37,448 nucleotides of DNA, taken from positions 1 to 37,448 of the IMG/VR virus record IMGVR_UViG_3300027498_000076; one strand, 5' to 3'. Shown here one piece after another: positions 3,766-36,423 of the stretch. Below the pieces are notes generated by a model that was not told the origin of the DNA, did not search any database, and worked only from the letters and a program-made list of their open reading frames with translations. The stretch's first letter is position 1; each line of letters opens with the position of its first letter. Made by a program: the position numbers and the translations under genes. This DNA is from a virus.

Positions 3766-4245
3766 ATGAAAAAATCTAAAGTAATAGAAATTAAGGAGTT
3801 AACATCTTGGTATAATGAGAAATACAGTAATACTATTTATAAGTTTGATGTGTTTTTTGAAAATGGTGAAGTGGCACAGTTTCATACAACAAAAGAACAA
3901 CAAGCAAGGTTTGTGGTTGGAAAGGAGGCAGAGTATGAAATTGAGATTAAAGAACTTGCAAACGGTGCAAAACTCAAGAAAATTAAATCTCTAAAATCAA
4001 ATAACAATTACATCCCCAATAAATATGGTTATAGAGAAACAGAGAAAGATTATCATAAACGCCAACGTTACATCATAGCTCAGTCCTGCCAAAAATCAGC
4101 AGTTCAATTGGTAGGAGAAAAAGATTTAGGTGAAATAGAAAGAGTAACTACGACCCTTTTTGGACAAATTATGAACCTTGTTAATGGCTGTGGGTTATCA
4201 GAAACTTTGGATATAGAAACAGAAAAAATAGAAATACCCGCATAA
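3766..4245 (+). CDS. Putative OB-fold/ssDNA-binding-like early protein
   Basis: The 159-residue protein has an N-terminal beta-rich domain (residues 20-75: YKFDVFFENGEVAQFHT, then RFVVGKEAEYEIEIKE) whose strand pattern resembles a small OB-fold. The C-terminal helix (RYIIAQSCQKSAVQLVGEKD) followed by LGEIERVTTTLFGQIMNLV resembles the tail helix found at the end of many phage ssDNA-binding and recombination proteins. A role at the replication fork fits its place ahead of the initiator gene. The fold is inferred by eye. Confidence 0.5.
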   Translation: MKKSKVIEIKELTSWYNEKYSNTIYKFDVFFENGEVAQFHTTKEQQARFVVGKEAEYEIEIKELANGAKLKKIKSLKSNNNYIPNKYGYRETEKDYHKRQRYIIAQSCQKSAVQLVGEKDLGEIERVTTTLFGQIMNLVNGCGLSETLDIETEKIEIPA

Positions 4246-4300
4246 CTGAGAATATCCAATGCGCCAAGCTATATTATTTCACCTATAAACAGTCAAGCCA

Positions 4301-4516
4301 ATGACCGACGAAAAAACGCCCGAAGAAGGCACAGAAACGCCCAAAAAAGGGACAGGAAAGACAGAACTATTGGTAGCGGATCGCTGCCAAGAACGAGCCT
4401 TGAAAATACTTGATAAGACGTATTTTGAAACAGATATGGACAAGTATATTGAGGAACTTGGGAAACGAGCCACAGAGCTATACAGACAAGTACAAACGGT
4501 TGCAAAGCGAGAGTGA
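4301..4516 (+). CDS. Small hypothetical early protein, 71 aa
   Basis: Not recognised. The product begins with a low-complexity acidic/Lys segment (TDEKTPEEGTETPKKGTG) and continues as a charged helical protein (DRCQERALKILDKTYFET, then YIEELGKRATELYRQV). A longer overlapping frame from 4410 reads through the same DNA, but its upstream part lacks sensible composition and I take its gene to begin at 4608. Confidence 0.5.
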   Translation: MTDEKTPEEGTETPKKGTGKTELLVADRCQERALKILDKTYFETDMDKYIEELGKRATELYRQVQTVAKRE

Positions 4517-4556
4517 GAAAATAGTTAACACATATAATAAAGCCCATGCCAGTTAT

Positions 4557-4605
4557 GTCGGAGTTCTGGTGTGGGTATATTTTTACGCTCCGACAAAACT
4601 CCGAC
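4557..4605. promoter_or_regulatory. Iteron-like boxes upstream of the replication initiator
   Basis: GTCGGAGTT (4557-4565) is inverted relative to two direct copies of CTCCGAC (4588-4594, 4599-4605) separated by AAAA, and the second ends two bases before the initiator ATG. The block TCCGACAAAACT is identical to the first 12 bases of the core of the first iteron inside the gene. Such initiator-gene boxes are commonly autoregulatory in iteron replicons. Confidence 0.6.
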
Positions 4606-4607
4606 AA

Positions 4608-5042
4608 ATGAATACAAGATTAATAGTAATAGATAACCTTCGAGCAGACGAGTGGGATTTGACGCTCTCAGAACGTTATCTATTTGGCTTTTTACACCGC
4701 TCAAAAGAGTGGGCGGAGAAGGTGAGCAAAGACCGTAATGGTATATGGTACTTTGTATCCAGAACCGTCGTAATAGCCCAAATTCCCTGCCTTACAAACA
4801 AGGCTGATACAGTATACCGTTTATACAAATCTTTGGAGAAAAAGGGTGTTTTATGTTATGCTAAAGATGGTAAAAAAGACTGTATTCAGTTTACCAAAAT
4901 GGGCGAGAGATGGAAACAAAAACGCGGAACTAAATCCGACAAAACTCGGAATCAAATCCGAGAAAACTCGGAAATGAATCCGAGAAAACTCGGAATGAAA
5001 TCCGAGAAAACTCGGAATGAAATCCGAGAAAACTCGGAATGA
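4608..5042 (+). CDS. Replication initiator, winged-helix domain plus iteron-encoded tail
   Basis: I chose ATG 4608, which gives 144 residues. The first ~105 residues form a winged-helix domain of the phage/plasmid replisome-organiser type: FLHRSKEWAEKVSKDRNGIW, then RTVVIAQIPCLTNKADTVYR (helix-turn-helix), LYKSLEKKGVL, and the wing ending FTKMGERWKQK. The remainder (KSDKTRNQIRENSE and variants) is the translation of the 22-bp DNA repeats, read in all three phases. The gene ends in the repeats at TGA 5040-5042. The matching C-terminal domain lies in the next frame (5017-5604). Having the origin inside the initiator gene resembles lambda O. Boxes upstream of the start suggest autoregulation. 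Confidence 0.8.
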   Translation: MNTRLIVIDNLRADEWDLTLSERYLFGFLHRSKEWAEKVSKDRNGIWYFVSRTVVIAQIPCLTNKADTVYRLYKSLEKKGVLCYAKDGKKDCIQFTKMGERWKQKRGTKSDKTRNQIRENSEMNPRKLGMKSEKTRNEIRENSE

Positions 5043-5072
5043 AATCCGAGAAAACTCGGATTTAAATCCGAC
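4932..5072. repeat. 22-bp iterons, putative replication origin
   Basis: Six copies of a 19-bp core (AAATCCGAGAAAACTCGGA) start at 4932, 4954, 4976 (one base altered), 4998, 5020 and 5042, an exact 22-bp period, followed by a half copy at 5064-5072. The first and last have TCCGAC in place of TCCGAG. Each core holds a perfect dyad, TCCGAG-AAAA-CTCGGA. Helically phased dyad repeats inside an initiator gene, followed by an A/T-rich stretch (5073-5150), are the usual anatomy of an iteron origin. Confidence 0.85.
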
Positions 5073-5604
5073 ATATAAAGAAGAATATAATAAAGGGGAA
5101 TATAATAAAGAGAGAGAGGATAAAAAAAACACTCACTCACAAAAAAAAATGAGTGAAAAAAAATCTAAATCTAAATCTGAGCAAGCGAATTCAAAAAAGT
5201 TGCGTCAAAAAAGAAAAAATCAAATGTTGATTGATGATTCAAACTTGGAGGAAGAAATCAACTTGGCGAAAATGGATGAGAGTTGGATTCGCATCAAAAT
5301 TAATTTTTTCAAAACCTTTGTGGGTGTGGAGATGGAGAAGGCAGAATTTCAAGAATGGATTGAAAAATTTTATTTGATGCAAGCGGGCAACGGAAAGACC
5401 TGGCCCAAGACCTCAGAGCTTCGAGGCAATATCGTAAACTGGATAAAATTAGAATTACCCAAAAAACAAAAAACCAATGGCAGATCCAAAATCAATAGCA
5501 AATTTAATTCAGCGACCAAAAGAGAGGGAGGCGCAAATGAGCATAGTTCCACAAAATTCGGAAGGGCAAATGCAGACGACCTCACTAACTGGGTTACAGG
5601 TTGA
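5017..5604 (+). CDS. C-terminal part of the replication initiator, in a shifted frame
   Basis: The frame is open from ATG 5017 inside the iterons; ATG 5149, after a run of nine A residues, is an alternative start giving 151 residues. The N-terminal part is a charged linker. From about residue 75 (numbered from 5017) there is a compact domain (MDESWIRIKINFFKTFVG, FQEWIEKFYLMQAGNGKTW, LRGNIVNWIKLELPKK) like the C-terminal domains of phage replication proteins. It ends DDLTNWVTG. Removing one 22-bp repeat would join it in frame to 4608-5042, so the two probably derive from one protein. It overlaps the preceding frame by 26 nt and the next gene by 68 nt. Confidence 0.7.
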   Translation: MKSEKTRNEIRENSDLNPTYKEEYNKGEYNKEREDKKNTHSQKKMSEKKSKSKSEQANSKKLRQKRKNQMLIDDSNLEEEINLAKMDESWIRIKINFFKTFVGVEMEKAEFQEWIEKFYLMQAGNGKTWPKTSELRGNIVNWIKLELPKKQKTNGRSKINSKFNSATKREGGANEHSSTKFGRANADDLTNWVTG

Positions 5605-6343
5605 AATCTTGGAAGCAAAAAAAAGTCCTATGATTGGAGAGGCGAGTGACCAGGATATTAAGAAAATTTTTGCGAATGTGATTGTGATGGTTGGAATTAA
5701 GCAGTTGCCAGATGAAGTTGCTACAATCAAACTTTTAAACCACCTTAGAAGGCGACACAGAGGGCTTACGCTTGCCGAAATAGAATTGGCGTATGACTTA
5801 GCTATAGCGAGAGAGTTCGAGTGCGAGATACGCCCATTTGGTTTTTTGAGTTGTGAGTATGTCGGAGGTGTATTGGCGGCTTACAAAGCCTACAAAAAAA
5901 GAAAGATTAGTGGCGACGTTCTTTCCAAAGCATACCCACAGCCAGAGGTTTTAGTATTGGAGCAGAAAAAGAGTAAGAGTTACCAAGAAGAGTTAGATAA
6001 ACAAGCAGTTGAGTATGCTCATTATAGATACCTAAAAGGTGAAACTAATTTATATATGCCTCTATGGAATCTTTATCTACACCATTCTAAAACAATAGGT
6101 GTTTGTAATTCAAAGGGGGAATTTCCAAAGAAAAAAATAAAGCGAGCGGCAGTCAAACAATTTATATTACAGCATTATAAAACCCGTTGCAATCCATTTA
6201 AATCTAAGCAGGAATTTGAGCAAATGCTACAAGAAAATAAACAGGTAATCAGGGTTATGGCAGGTGAGCTTTCAGTTATTTGGCTTTTTGAAAAATGGAA
6301 AAGTGAAGGGTGGAAACTAAACGACCAAGAAACCAATGGATAA
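5537..6343 (+). CDS. Replication-associated protein, helicase-loader-like
   Basis: The open frame begins at 5477, but ATG 5537 is preceded by GGAGG at a suitable distance, giving 268 residues. The central region (residues 50-120: VGIKQLPDEVATIKLLNHLR, then LTLAEIELAYDLAIA, FGFLSCEYVGGVLAAYK) has the helical pattern of a protein that commonly follows the initiator in Bacteroidota phages and may be the functional counterpart of a lambda P/DnaC-type loader. No Walker motif is visible. The C-terminal half is helical and Lys-rich. The start overlaps the end of the initiator frame and the stop overlaps the next gene by 8 nt, so they are one operon. The function is inferred mainly from position. Confidence 0.6.
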   Translation: MSIVPQNSEGQMQTTSLTGLQVEILEAKKSPMIGEASDQDIKKIFANVIVMVGIKQLPDEVATIKLLNHLRRRHRGLTLAEIELAYDLAIAREFECEIRPFGFLSCEYVGGVLAAYKAYKKRKISGDVLSKAYPQPEVLVLEQKKSKSYQEELDKQAVEYAHYRYLKGETNLYMPLWNLYLHHSKTIGVCNSKGEFPKKKIKRAAVKQFILQHYKTRCNPFKSKQEFEQMLQENKQVIRVMAGELSVIWLFEKWKSEGWKLNDQETNG

Positions 6344-6881
6344 AAAAACAAGATATTATCCTAAATCAAAAATGAGAAAACCAAGCGAAAAACAAAAAGC
6401 AATATTGAGATTCTTACTTGATGGAGATAAGAAGAAAAGCGAGATTGTTGAGCAGTTCGGGCGTTGGTACTATGCGAATGCTTCTCACCATGTCGGACAA
6501 TTGCTACATCGGATGATTGATAGAAATTTGATTGTGAGAGTCCGACGTGGCGTGTATGGTAGGCGGACAAGCCCTGTTCAGGTCAAAGGGCAATATGCTT
6601 TGTTTTTTGAGGAAATTGACGGAACAGCAGAAGTATTGCGACTTGAAAAACATGTGAATGCCATCGTTACGGGTGGCAATCAGATGATCGCATCAGAGCA
6701 CAAGATGGTAGAAAAGCTAAGCAGTTTGATTTCAGACGATTTGGAATGCTCCATTAGTTACAATGGAGAGAATGGTGTTGAAGTGCGTATGAAACATGAG
6801 GGAAATTGGATTGATCTCGAACTCGAAGATATTAAGGCTGTTTTGAAAACAGGTAGGAAATTTAATTCGCAAGATTTGTAA
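6336..6881 (+). CDS. Winged-helix DNA-binding protein
   Basis: A 181-residue protein with an N-terminal winged helix at about residues 13-75: KPSEKQKAILRFLLDGDKKK, then SEIVEQFGRWYYANASHHVG and LLHRMIDRNLIVRVRRGVYG, the last ending with the wing. The second half is a mixed alpha/beta segment with no recognised family. It is coupled to the upstream gene by an 8-nt overlap and followed closely by 6884. It may act as a regulator of late transcription, given its place at the end of the replication operon, but that is inference. Confidence 0.6.
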   Translation: MDKKTRYYPKSKMRKPSEKQKAILRFLLDGDKKKSEIVEQFGRWYYANASHHVGQLLHRMIDRNLIVRVRRGVYGRRTSPVQVKGQYALFFEEIDGTAEVLRLEKHVNAIVTGGNQMIASEHKMVEKLSSLISDDLECSISYNGENGVEVRMKHEGNWIDLELEDIKAVLKTGRKFNSQDL

Positions 6882-8054: not shown

Positions 8055-8633
8055 ATGGCTAAGAAGAAAATAACTATCAAAATAGATCCAAATAACCCAC
8101 GACATCACAGTGATCGTAACAAGGAGCTTATAAGTAAATCATTAAAAGATAATGGTGCTGGGCGGAGTATTTTAGCTGATGCCAATGGAATTGTTATTGC
8201 AGGCAATGGAACCTACGAACAGGCACAAAAACTTGGAATCCCTATCAAGGTCATCAAAACCAACGGTGACGAATTGGTTGTAATACAGCGAGAGGATTTG
8301 AGTACAGATGATGCCAGAAGAAAGAGCCTTGTTATTGCTGATAATGCAACAACAGATACGAGTACGTGGGATTTTGAAAAGTTAGAGAATGAATACTTTG
8401 ATGATATTGATTTTGAAGAATGGGATGTATTACCATTTGAAGAAAAAAAGGCTGAAAGTGCAAAAGATGATGGTTTTGTTCCATCGGAAAAAATACAAGT
8501 TAGCGTCAGTCGTGGAGATTTGATGGAGTTTGTTTGCCAAGATGGTCGTGTACATCGCCTTTTATGTGGTGATTCTACGAACTTAGATGATTTAAATCTA
8601 TTGATGGGTAATGTATTGGCTGATCTTGGATAA
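8055..8633 (+). CDS. ParB-like N-terminal half of a frameshifted DNA methyltransferase
   Basis: The 192-residue frame has a ParB-like nuclease-fold domain (residues 7-100: KIDPNNPRHHSDRNKELISK, LKDNGAGRSILADANG, IVIAGNGTYEQAQKLGIPIK). An acidic linker (FDDIDFEEWDVLPFEEKK) and the start of a methyltransferase domain (VHRLLCGDSTNLDDLNLLMG) follow. It then hits TAA 8631-8633 just where motif IV should begin. This arrangement is common in phage adenine/cytosine-N4 methyltransferases. The catalytic part continues in another frame at 8611-9291. The ParB-like domain is complete and could still be made, but the protein cannot methylate as written. Confidence 0.75.
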   Translation: MAKKKITIKIDPNNPRHHSDRNKELISKSLKDNGAGRSILADANGIVIAGNGTYEQAQKLGIPIKVIKTNGDELVVIQREDLSTDDARRKSLVIADNATTDTSTWDFEKLENEYFDDIDFEEWDVLPFEEKKAESAKDDGFVPSEKIQVSVSRGDLMEFVCQDGRVHRLLCGDSTNLDDLNLLMGNVLADLG

Positions 8634-9291
8634 CAGATCTCCTTATGGTGTAGATTATACTGATGACAAGAACAGAAAGATTAAAAACGATAATGGCAAA
8701 GGAGAAGACATGGAGGTTTTCTGGTCTTCAGTTGCTTCTAATGTTATTGATAAGTGTAAGGATATTTGTTCCTTTTATTGGTTTTTTGCGAGTGGAGGTG
8801 GACTTGCAAGACATAATTTGAATGCTTTGAATAAATCAGGATGGCATGACAATCACATTTTAATTTGGTTTAAAAATTCGCATGCTTTTAGTAGAACAGA
8901 TTATACTTGCCAACATGAGCCCATTGTGTATGGTTGGAAAAAGGAAGGAATACATAAGTTCTATGGTGGTTTCAAAACGAGTGTATTGGAGTTTGATAAG
9001 CCTCATCGAAGTGAGCTACATCCAACGATGAAACCGATTGAATTGATTGGTGAACTTATCAATAATTCAAGTCTGGAAGGCATGGTAGTTTTAGATACTT
9101 TTTTGGGGAGCGGTTCAACAATGGTCGCAGCTCACCAGTTGAAAAGAACTTGTTATGGAATGGAGTTGGATGAGTTGTATTGTCAGGTGATTATCAATAG
9201 AATGTTGGGATTAGATGAAGGTATCATCGTCAAAATCAATGGAAAAGATGAGACGAAGAAACAGCGAGAAATTCTTGAATTACAAAAATAA
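8611..9291 (+). pseudogene. Catalytic half of the frameshifted DNA methyltransferase (N6/N4 type)
   Basis: The frame resumes the methyltransferase with SPYGVDYTDDKNRKIKNDNG, keeps the FWSSVAS and DICSFYWFFASGGG region, LHPTMKPIELIGELI, and motif I (DTFLGSGSTMVAAH, residues about 165-178) followed by YGMELDELYC. Motif order IV before I fits the beta class. The catalytic DPPY is damaged: the frame reads RSPY. Restoring one base near 8629 and one C near 8640 turns the junction into A-D-L-x-I-T-D-P-P-Y-G-V-D-Y. No further stop or indel is visible. The start listed (8611) is only the nominal frame opening. Confidence 0.75.
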
Positions 9292-34307: not shown

Positions 34308-35768
34308 ATGGCGAAAAAACGCTCAAATAGAAAAAGGGGAAATCAAAATAGGAGCAAAGAAATCCAGCATGAAAATGCTGGATTTCTTTTGCCTGTTAAA
34401 AACATAGCTCCTTCTGCCCCATTGCCAACAGAAGATGATGGTACTCATAACACCAATCGTTATGATTATCATCGTTGGTATAACAATGGAACTGATTTTG
34501 TCAGAAATCTTCAATGTCTTGCAGAACTTTCTCCGACACGTTCAGCTTGTATTGGAGATAAAACTTGGCTATCAATGGGAGATGGCTTCACTATTAATCG
34601 TAGAAGCCGTTCAGGTATTTTTGCAGCTTTTCAATTTTTCAAAGAGCATATTGTTGGCATTGAAGATAAGGGTAGAGATTTGGTTGCAGACTTCTTGGAG
34701 TCTAAGAACAATGACGGTGAAAACCTGTATGAATTACTAGAACAATCTTTCAGGAATTATTACGGACTTGGAAATGTTGTTGTTGAACTTGTTAGAGGGT
34801 CGGTTTTAGGGGAGCGATATTTTAAGGTATATGTTCACCAAATAGCTGACTGTGTTTTGTCTAAGCCAAAAAAGCAGAGGGGAAAACAATATGTGCTAAT
34901 TGCCAAAAAGAAAAATGTCTTTTCTTCTAACGGACACCCTCCAACAAAAATACGATTAGGAGAGTGGGAGCGAAATGGAAAAGAGGAGCGTATGGCAATT
35001 TGGATAAAAGATGAGAAGATAGGACGTAAAATTTATGGTGTTCCTTCAGGAGCGTCATCTATTAAATGGCAAATGTTAGAATGTCTTTCTCCTTGTCATG
35101 TTATTCGTCGGGTTGAGGACGGTTTTGCCGCAGATACTTTTATCGAATTGGTTGAGCGAAAAACGCTCACTAAAAAACAGCAAAAAGCCATTAAAGATAT
35201 GTTTCTCCAAAAGTTTACCAATATGGAGATTGAAGGATTGGAAGATGTGCAGAAGGAGAGTGTTATTACCCGATTTGTTCAGGATCCAGAGATGTTCTCT
35301 AAAGTGCACAATCTGCAACGTAATGATGATTATAGTTACATCAAAGAGTCTCTTTTAGATGCAGAGCGTAATATCTTAAAGTCGGAACATTGGTCGCCTA
35401 TTTTATTAGGTGTTTCAAAGAATAATTCCATTGGGCGAAGTAGAGAAATATCGGATGCCATTAATTTGGCAACAATAAAGATAATTAGGCCCACTCAAAA
35501 TAAAATATTAAGCAGATTTATAAATACTGCTTTGAGAGAATGGGGGCAGTGGATGGGTCATGATAAATCTATTAGTGGATATAGTGTAGATGTTTCAAAA
35601 GGCATTAATCCATTTGTGGAAATGAATCCATCTGGTACCATGACTATTAATGAAGTTCGAGCGATGAATGGAATGCCACCGCTTTCTGATGCCAAAGGGA
35701 ATTTGCGACCAGAAGGTTTTGAACTTGCTACTCTTAGACAAACCAATCAAAATGTCAAAGTCAGTTAA
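34308..35768 (+). CDS. Portal protein
   Basis: A 486-residue protein with the pattern of phage portals: basic N-terminus, then SPTRSACIGDKTWLSMGDGF and SFRNYYGLGNVVVELVRG (wing strands), the stem-type region (ALREWGQWM, preceded by RPTQNKILSRFINT), and a C-terminal crown-like segment with MTINEVRAMNGMPPL. The PxxxNxxR-like ending MTINEVRAMNGMPPLSD is common in portals. It forms the dodecameric ring through which TerL packages DNA. Its gene lies after the capsid rather than before it, a rearranged order. Confidence 0.8.
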   Translation: MAKKRSNRKRGNQNRSKEIQHENAGFLLPVKNIAPSAPLPTEDDGTHNTNRYDYHRWYNNGTDFVRNLQCLAELSPTRSACIGDKTWLSMGDGFTINRRSRSGIFAAFQFFKEHIVGIEDKGRDLVADFLESKNNDGENLYELLEQSFRNYYGLGNVVVELVRGSVLGERYFKVYVHQIADCVLSKPKKQRGKQYVLIAKKKNVFSSNGHPPTKIRLGEWERNGKEERMAIWIKDEKIGRKIYGVPSGASSIKWQMLECLSPCHVIRRVEDGFAADTFIELVERKTLTKKQQKAIKDMFLQKFTNMEIEGLEDVQKESVITRFVQDPEMFSKVHNLQRNDDYSYIKESLLDAERNILKSEHWSPILLGVSKNNSIGRSREISDAINLATIKIIRPTQNKILSRFINTALREWGQWMGHDKSISGYSVDVSKGINPFVEMNPSGTMTINEVRAMNGMPPLSDAKGNLRPEGFELATLRQTNQNVKVS

Positions 35769-36423
35769 AAAAAAAGGAATATTTGATTTTTACAAAAATC
35801 TAATTACTCCTGATGAAGTCAAATCAAAGGGGCCATTCTCAAAAACATATGACCCAAATTTGGTATGTCCTTTCATCCCTGTTGTTGTCGGAAGTTGGTG
35901 TGATTGTTTTGGATTGGAGTTTCTAATGGAGGTGTATAAACACAAATGCGAGAACTGGGAAAATGATGTGCAGCCTGAACCAGAAGGGATTTTTGGAGGA
36001 TGTGGGTATTTCCAGTATATGTGGGAGACTTTCATGTGTCCTTTTTTGGCTTTTGCTATTGCCCGAAAAAATCTATATCCTTCTACATACCGCCATACGT
36101 CGAAGGGAACGGCTAAATTGGATGATGGGTCAATGAAAGCACTTGATGGCAAAGAGCTTGCCACCTATAGTCGGGAGCTGCAAACTGATGTACAGATTCT
36201 TTTTAACAACCTCCATCAATTTCTTTGTCAATTTCCAGAAGGGTACTCTAATTATTTAGGACTTCCAAAAGTGGAGACAGGGGGATGTGGGACTGAGGAA
36301 AACAATAATTGTGCTACAGAACCGACAGGCGGTTTTGCCTTTGAAATTCCAACGGATAAGAAAGAGGAGAAAAAGGGATGTTGTAAAAAAAGAAAGTCAA
36401 AACAGAAAAAGTGGTACACATGA
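35752..36423 (+). CDS. Head-tail adaptor-like Cys-rich protein
   Basis: The frame is open from 35668, but ATG 35752 (MSKSVKKKGIFDFYKNLITP) overlaps the portal stop by 17 nt and is the probable start, giving 223 residues. It is Cys-rich (VGSWCDCFGLEF, GGCGYFQYMWETFMCPF) with helical segments (LQTDVQILFNNLHQFLCQF) and ends in a basic Cys tail (KKGCCKKRKSKQKKW). Adaptor-type proteins often follow the portal. Not recognised more precisely. Confidence 0.55.
   Translation: MSKSVKKKGIFDFYKNLITPDEVKSKGPFSKTYDPNLVCPFIPVVVGSWCDCFGLEFLMEVYKHKCENWENDVQPEPEGIFGGCGYFQYMWETFMCPFLAFAIARKNLYPSTYRHTSKGTAKLDDGSMKALDGKELATYSRELQTDVQILFNNLHQFLCQFPEGYSNYLGLPKVETGGCGTEENNNCATEPTGGFAFEIPTDKKEEKKGCCKKRKSKQKKWYT

Follow-up and report, generated by a model that had tools for sequence, protein, structure and literature searches.

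The locus considered here raises the question of whether a virus can use the number of repeats in its replication origin to decide if its initiator is made as one protein or as two, or whether the initiator gene is simply broken. It lies in a linear record of 37,448 bases, the whole of which was analysed and is referred to below as the window, and consists of a replication-initiator gene in two frames with an iteron array mid-gene (4608–5604). A sequence-only reading had placed these iterons inside an initiator gene and suggested that their copy number acts as a switch, with a one-repeat expansion or a misassembly as the alternative. The placement holds, and we consider it very probable that the window contains an initiator of the usual single-protein kind, carrying its own origin, to which slippage or an assembly error has added one iteron. 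The features of the locus are as follows.

4558–4604, + strand: three half-iterons upstream of the start codon (TCGGA at 4558–4562, TCCGA at 4589–4593 and at 4600–4604)
4608–5042, + strand: N-terminal half of the initiator, a winged-helix domain (about residues 1–105) followed by an array-encoded linker, from profile matches and AlphaFold
4927–5071, + strand: iteron array, six full sites AATCCGA-N6-TCGGA with a period of 22, and a terminal half-site
4977–5060, + strand: exact 22-periodic stretch of 84 nt, the place of the probable surplus iteron
5017–5604, + strand: C-terminal half in the shifted frame, with a C-terminal domain of no assigned family, from translation and the junction match
5072–5131, + strand: AT-rich stretch beside the last half-iteron, a candidate DNA-unwinding element by analogy with ori lambda
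5537–6343, + strand: next gene, which overlaps the initiator gene and is placed as lambda P or helicase genes are, with a weak match to phrog_26016 (function unknown)

Tandem Repeats Finder reports a period of 22 bp at 4919–5071 (7.0 copies, 91% matches), and the units of the array start at 4927, 4949, 4971, 4993, 5015, 5037 and 5059, the last being a half-site. The full sites, AATCCGA-N6-TCGGA, start at 4933, 4955, 4977, 4999, 5021 and 5043 (span 4933–5061), and the closing half-site is TCCGA at 5067–5071. With the start of the initiator set at ATG 4608 (a longer ORF from TTG 4410 is a mechanical extension by the ORF tool), the N-terminal frame (4608–5042, 144 aa) reads through the first five array units and ends in the sixth, where the iteron gives a TGA at 5040–5042. 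The C-terminal frame, one frame on from it, is open from 4999, and from its ATG at 5017 it runs to 5604 (195 aa). The sequence-only reading had both the coordinates and the offset of the two frames right. Because the unit is 22 bp, each iteron gained or lost changes the frame, and the array has the property looked for in phase-variable loci, a repeat unit that is not a multiple of three within a coding frame. When 0 to 8 identical units were put into the array in silico, a single 324-aa frame resulted from two of them, which bring the array to five full iterons, so that one repeat fewer does join the halves as had been claimed; the remaining eight of the nine numbers tried (0, 1 and 3–8) gave a stop within the array at 134–144 aa. 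As only one copy number works, the array does not behave like a toggle that would be on at every third number of copies. The TCCGA motifs of the window fall in phases 0,1,2,0,1,2,0 of the N-terminal frame, with the last site one phase too far, which is what one surplus 22-mer predicts. Iteron 3 (4971) is read in the phase of iteron 6, and a variation in its sequence avoids the stop, as expected of a frame under selection.

The repeats themselves are unusually uniform. The units at 4993, 5015 and 5037 are letter-identical, and the self-match run at a lag of 22 (62 nt) ranks first among the 185 listed family members, of which the second has 33 nt and the median is 18 nt; by arithmetic, it would still be 40 nt with one unit fewer. 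The window array has probably been expanded recently, and is probably the one most prone to slippage or to a miscount by an assembler.

The N-terminal half matches the profiles phrog_25527 (E 1.8e-24) and phrog_11527 (E 5.1e-19) and, more weakly, phrog_428, a replication initiation protein (E 1.2e-8), while a family N-domain HMM matches the window at E 1.1e-30; no Pfam family was found for it at E up to 1. AlphaFold, run on the N-terminal half with 24 relatives, predicts a winged-helix-type fold (mean pLDDT 90.3). A Foldseek search with this model placed the RepA_N initiators 4pql, 4pt7 and 5kbj among the first six rows, with 4pta also near the top, and a search of the solved structures by sequence gave nothing useful. 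The top solved structure, 4pql_B, has a Z of 9.0 (107 aligned, rmsd 4.8) and is followed by MarR-type rows at Z 8.8–8.9. With MarR-type regulators so close behind, the fold backs winged-helix DNA binding and does not prove descent from RepA_N. The N-terminal half probably binds the iterons.

By its sequence, the gene is a broken member of a phage-initiator family with in-gene iterons, of the phrog_25527/phrog_11527 type. It has the N-domain profile, TCCGA..TCGGA iterons of about 22 bp after the N-domain and an AT-rich stretch next to these, and it lacks the single open frame from N-domain through array to C-domain; N-domain identity between the window and aligned relatives is 22–47%. Proteins of the two profiles, labelled 'unknown function', have the N-domain and the in-gene iterons (ATCCGA..TCGGA) of the window, as in Psychrobacter phage pOW20-A and the Pseudomonas phages phiAH14a, LKA5 and F116, whereas the C-domain of the window is not clearly common to them. 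In F116 (AY625898, locus L283 201–1217) the 1017 bases of the gene form a single open frame, which the annotation gives as two short ORFs.

The C-terminal frame reads the last half-iteron as N-P-T, as the relatives do, and the window sequence at the junction, SDLNPTYKEEY, is matched by L024, a relative with a single ORF (phmmer E 6.6e-8). Past the junction no clear homologue of the C-terminal half was found, and neither Pfam nor PHROG gave a match to it at E up to 1. The gene that follows appears to start at ATG 5537, with GGGAGG ahead of it at 5526–5531 (the first start given by the tool is 5477). Gene order is as in the relatives, and in the two annotated ones the next gene is labelled a replicative DNA helicase or replication protein P and overlaps or abuts the initiator gene. 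The stretch at 5072–5131 is 77% AT, as against 59% in the N-domain DNA, and in 179 of 183 listed family members the 60 nt past the last half-site are likewise AT-richer than the N-domain DNA; by analogy with ori lambda, it is probably a DNA-unwinding element. The half-iterons at 4558–4604 are a possible operator for self-repression. In the 100 nt ahead of the start codon, more than one half-site is present in the window alone among 169 listed family members. The idea that the whole family represses itself in this way was considered and rejected, the upstream half-sites in relatives occurring at 0.08 per 100 nt against a background of 0.13; as they are not enriched there, self-repression is at most a feature of the window.

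Iterons within the gene, an AT-rich stretch and a further replication gene next to it give this locus the anatomy of phage lambda O or pSK41 Rep. Lambda O likewise has its iterons mid-gene with an AT-rich stretch adjacent to them, and the replication gene that follows overlaps it; the four lambda iterons lie at 1035–1119 of locus L278, within O (687–1586), and P follows. The window differs from lambda O in its iteron sequence and its N-domain, and in having its array out of frame. Phage_rep_O (PF04492) matched neither the window nor six relatives (lambda O itself, 5.7e-36), and direct homology to lambda O was rejected when an hhalign profile comparison gave nothing; the only sequence link is the profile phrog_678, which is matched by both the relative L005 and lambda O. 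RepA_N proteins such as staphylococcal pSK41 Rep have a winged-helix N-terminal fold that the modelled N-domain of the window may share. In pSK41 Rep the binding sites are central in the gene, and an origin-encoded linker and a separate C-domain are described in the available part of the source (PMC5703833). The window differs from RepA_N in sequence membership, in its iteron and in being a phage and not a plasmid.

Whether such a gene is normally one frame or two can be read from its relatives. Iteron pattern scans, together with protein and annotated hits, gathered at least 252 loci including the window; with the 67 of these 252 that have no N-domain match left out, at least 185 genes with the N-domain were obtained (115 from viral contigs, 60 from genome contigs, nine from phage records, and the window). 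All 185 listed genes have iteron-like sites after the N-domain, and in the relatives, whether from Pseudomonas, Pasteurellaceae, Flavobacterium or other hosts, iterons of the same kind occur at the same position within the gene. Thirteen of the 185 are cut by the end of a locus or contig, which leaves 172 that can be evaluated (171 relatives and the window), a gene being taken as intact if one frame runs at least 50 residues past the array. Among the matches listed, 167 of the 171 evaluable relatives are intact through the array, and all nine genes from phage records (L005–L013) are single ORFs; the five of 172 that are not intact are the window, L063, L152, L173 and L233. The last TCCGA stands in the N-P-T phase in 163 of the 167 intact listed genes, despite varying numbers of sites and varying spacers (35-22-22-23, 35-22-22-22-22 and 22-22-22, for example). 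Compared with related phages, as the sequence-only reading had proposed, the two halves are thus a single gene in 167 of 171 listed relatives, and a set of relatives all with separate genes was not what was found.

The pattern scans demand two good iterons, and arrays worn down to one site are therefore under-sampled. In the Pasteurellaceae, which were sampled by protein and so free of this demand, 17 of 140 genomes matched with 18 genes, four of which are broken: L260 and L267, which are the genes already listed as L152 and L173 respectively, L276, with its break in the N-domain, and L273, with its break after the array. The Bacteroidota were tried as a host group and set aside, as the sole match in 395 sampled genomes of that one phylum was the centre genome itself. 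No near-identical relative of the window was found: protein look-ups in viral contigs with both halves, the downstream gene, a terminase-like ORF and the head protease gave distant relatives or none, a megablast of window bases 1–25000 against phages gave no match, and a distant blastn with the initiator gene as query matched no plasmid and hit a Mannheimia phage alone (two records), in its array region. In consequence, the intact state of the window itself is one that we infer from the family.

The way in which arrays change between close relatives is more telling. Among pairs with at least 90% DNA identity in the N-domain and neither end cut (1267 pairs, not independent of each other), the length from the start of the N-domain to the last site differs in 111 pairs of listed members, and in 110 of these 111 the difference is a multiple of three. 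The sole exception is the intact L138 against the split L152, which is without 31 bp of the array. In Hollowayvirus, 36 records match, and in the 31 of them with a coverage of at least 80% the gene lengths are 1005, 1017, 1023 and 1035, all multiples of three, and seven aligned genes representing all four lengths are open throughout; one has an extra 18-nt iteron unit, and a 15-nt repeat varies in others. In Flavobacterium an identical gene of 717 bases occurs in nine records. The length changes of close relatives in threes indicate that the frame is held by selection and that copy number is not freely varied. The O genes of Stx phages have six iterons, two more than lambda, and this gain makes O longer by 13 residues without a change of frame, according to the available part of the source (PMC7466680), which provides a known precedent for iteron gain that keeps the frame.

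As far as assembled sequences can tell, rare frame-breaking changes of the array do occur in relatives. A pattern over the last half-site of the window and its AT-rich stretch found two contigs, L024 and L284, which over 5137 bases have one difference in length, of 23 bases; in the part compared base by base there were no mismatches in 1746 columns, and one gap. The array of L284 is without 23 nt (one iteron and one base), so that its N-terminal frame stops in the array, where L024 has one frame. The array of L284 lies about 220 bases from the end of its contig, where misassembly is likelier. In L063 the phases run 2,0,1 where 2,0,1,2 is found elsewhere, consistent with the loss of one iteron. 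L173 is a decayed gene in which the frame changes again farther downstream, and in L233 the break comes after the array.

In the most probable reading, a one-iteron expansion of a single-protein initiator, the biochemical steps are drawn by analogy with lambda O and pSK41 Rep, as treated in the available parts of the sources (PMC7466680 and PMC5703833). The winged-helix N-domain would bind the iterons, which also encode the linker between the N-domain and the C-domain; the AT-rich stretch beside them would melt, and the C-domain would recruit the next replication protein. In its functional state the gene would have five full iterons and encode a single protein of about 324 aa. One surplus, identical iteron, arising from slippage in the phage or from an assembly error, would then have cut the initiator into a DNA-binding piece and a C-terminal piece. 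The expansion or misassembly that the sequence-only reading gave as its alternative is in this way supported by the single-frame relatives and by the last site of the window, which is one phase off.

Between slippage and error, the evidence is mixed. The exact stretch of 84 nt could be spanned by ordinary reads of 150 bases, which weakens the case for an assembly error. The contig has another split gene, a ParB-methyltransferase gene of which 8055–8633 and 8611–9291 match positions 43–225 and 230–440 of phrog_498; the break falls at what we take to be the expected DPPY catalytic motif, which suggests a sequence error or gene decay. A second split gene in the contig favours a contig error or a decaying prophage over slippage alone. 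Elsewhere in the window, a weakly portal-like ORF (34308–35768) and the ORF at 35668–36423 overlap by about 100 bases in different frames, and could be a further split gene or an ordinary overlap.

It appears very unlikely to us that slippage in iteron number works reversibly as a switch, which would make this a contingency locus that is on with five iterons and off with any other, the off state being a short iteron-binding protein that blocks the origin and favours dormancy. Such a switch would have one working setting only. The use of copy number in this way, as first suggested for this locus, agrees poorly with the length changes of close relatives, which keep the frame in 110 of 111 cases among listed members, and with the 167 of 171 evaluable listed relatives that are intact; the other array-broken alleles are isolated, and one of them is a decayed gene. 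Most arrays are moreover made of diverged units (median self-match 18 nt among listed members), in which slippage should be damped. The switch would be helped by the 84-nt exact 22-periodic stretch of the window, which is the longest self-match of the 185 listed, by the single-iteron alleles of the otherwise identical L024 and L284, and by the in-frame ATG (5017) that the array offers to the C-terminal half. Also in its favour, lambda replication can be silenced by iterons on a plasmid in combination with oop transcription, and among the mechanisms discussed in the available part of the source (PMC3349717) is that the O protein is sequestered. A literature search by titles and the openings of abstracts, with most subscription journals outside its scope, did not find iteron copy number described as a reading-frame switch. 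A more pointed form of the idea, that slippage at an origin contingency locus makes the initiator alternate between its full-length, activating form and a truncated form that binds iterons and blocks, we hold to be highly improbable. If true, the same repeat would set both the number of origin sites and the frame of the protein binding those sites, and the choice to replicate or stay silent would be heritable and reversible.

It is likewise highly doubtful that the initiator is truly made as two proteins, a DNA-binding piece to 5042 and a C-terminal piece from ATG 5017 or ATG 5149, acting in concert. Both frames are open and complete as written, and the C-terminal frame overlaps the downstream gene, as the initiator genes of relatives do; yet none of the examined relatives comes from a group in which two genes are fixed, the split ones standing isolated among intact ones. 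By eye, there is no ribosome-binding-site-like sequence at the usual distance before ATG 5017, and the C-terminal frame still reads the end of the array in the family frame, like the remnant of a fused gene. In favour of two proteins, the linker of pSK41 Rep can be removed in frame with the protein still able to rescue, as reported in the available part of the source (PMC5703833). A programmed +1 ribosomal frameshift that joins the halves in the overlap at 4999–5042 is scarcely credible: the frames do overlap there and the shift needed is +1, but inspection of the overlap found no recognised +1 slippery stop context, the relatives need no shift, and an Rfam search of 4200–6400 gave no element at threshold.

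Read as a broken single-protein initiator, the locus has a meaning beyond the window. A widespread family of phage proteins of 'unknown function' is placed with the initiators that have an origin of their own, and its iteron is conserved across phages and prophages of Pseudomonas, Pasteurellaceae, Flavobacterium and others. Since a 22-bp binding repeat and the triplet code share the same DNA, the size of the origin can change only with a compensating shift or in threes. Alleles that break this rule (the window, L284 and L152) make the rate at which replication is lost and regained by iteron slippage directly testable. They also carry a warning for annotation, as such split genes are probably not two genes.

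The region around the origin also has signs of exchange. Bases 4980–5105 of the window and 1259–1384 of L024, covering the end of the array and the AT-rich stretch, are 84% identical in DNA over 126 bases, and no DNA match to the compared part of L024 was seen outside the array region, as if the origin segment had been exchanged between phages or were strongly constrained. In the Pseudomonas phages Atpa001 and vB_Pae_CF63a, the match to the LKA5 initiator does not begin until about base 531–540, and the differing N-domain side looks like a modular exchange near the origin, comparable to that in the pPR9/pSK41 chimera described in the available part of the source (PMC5703833).
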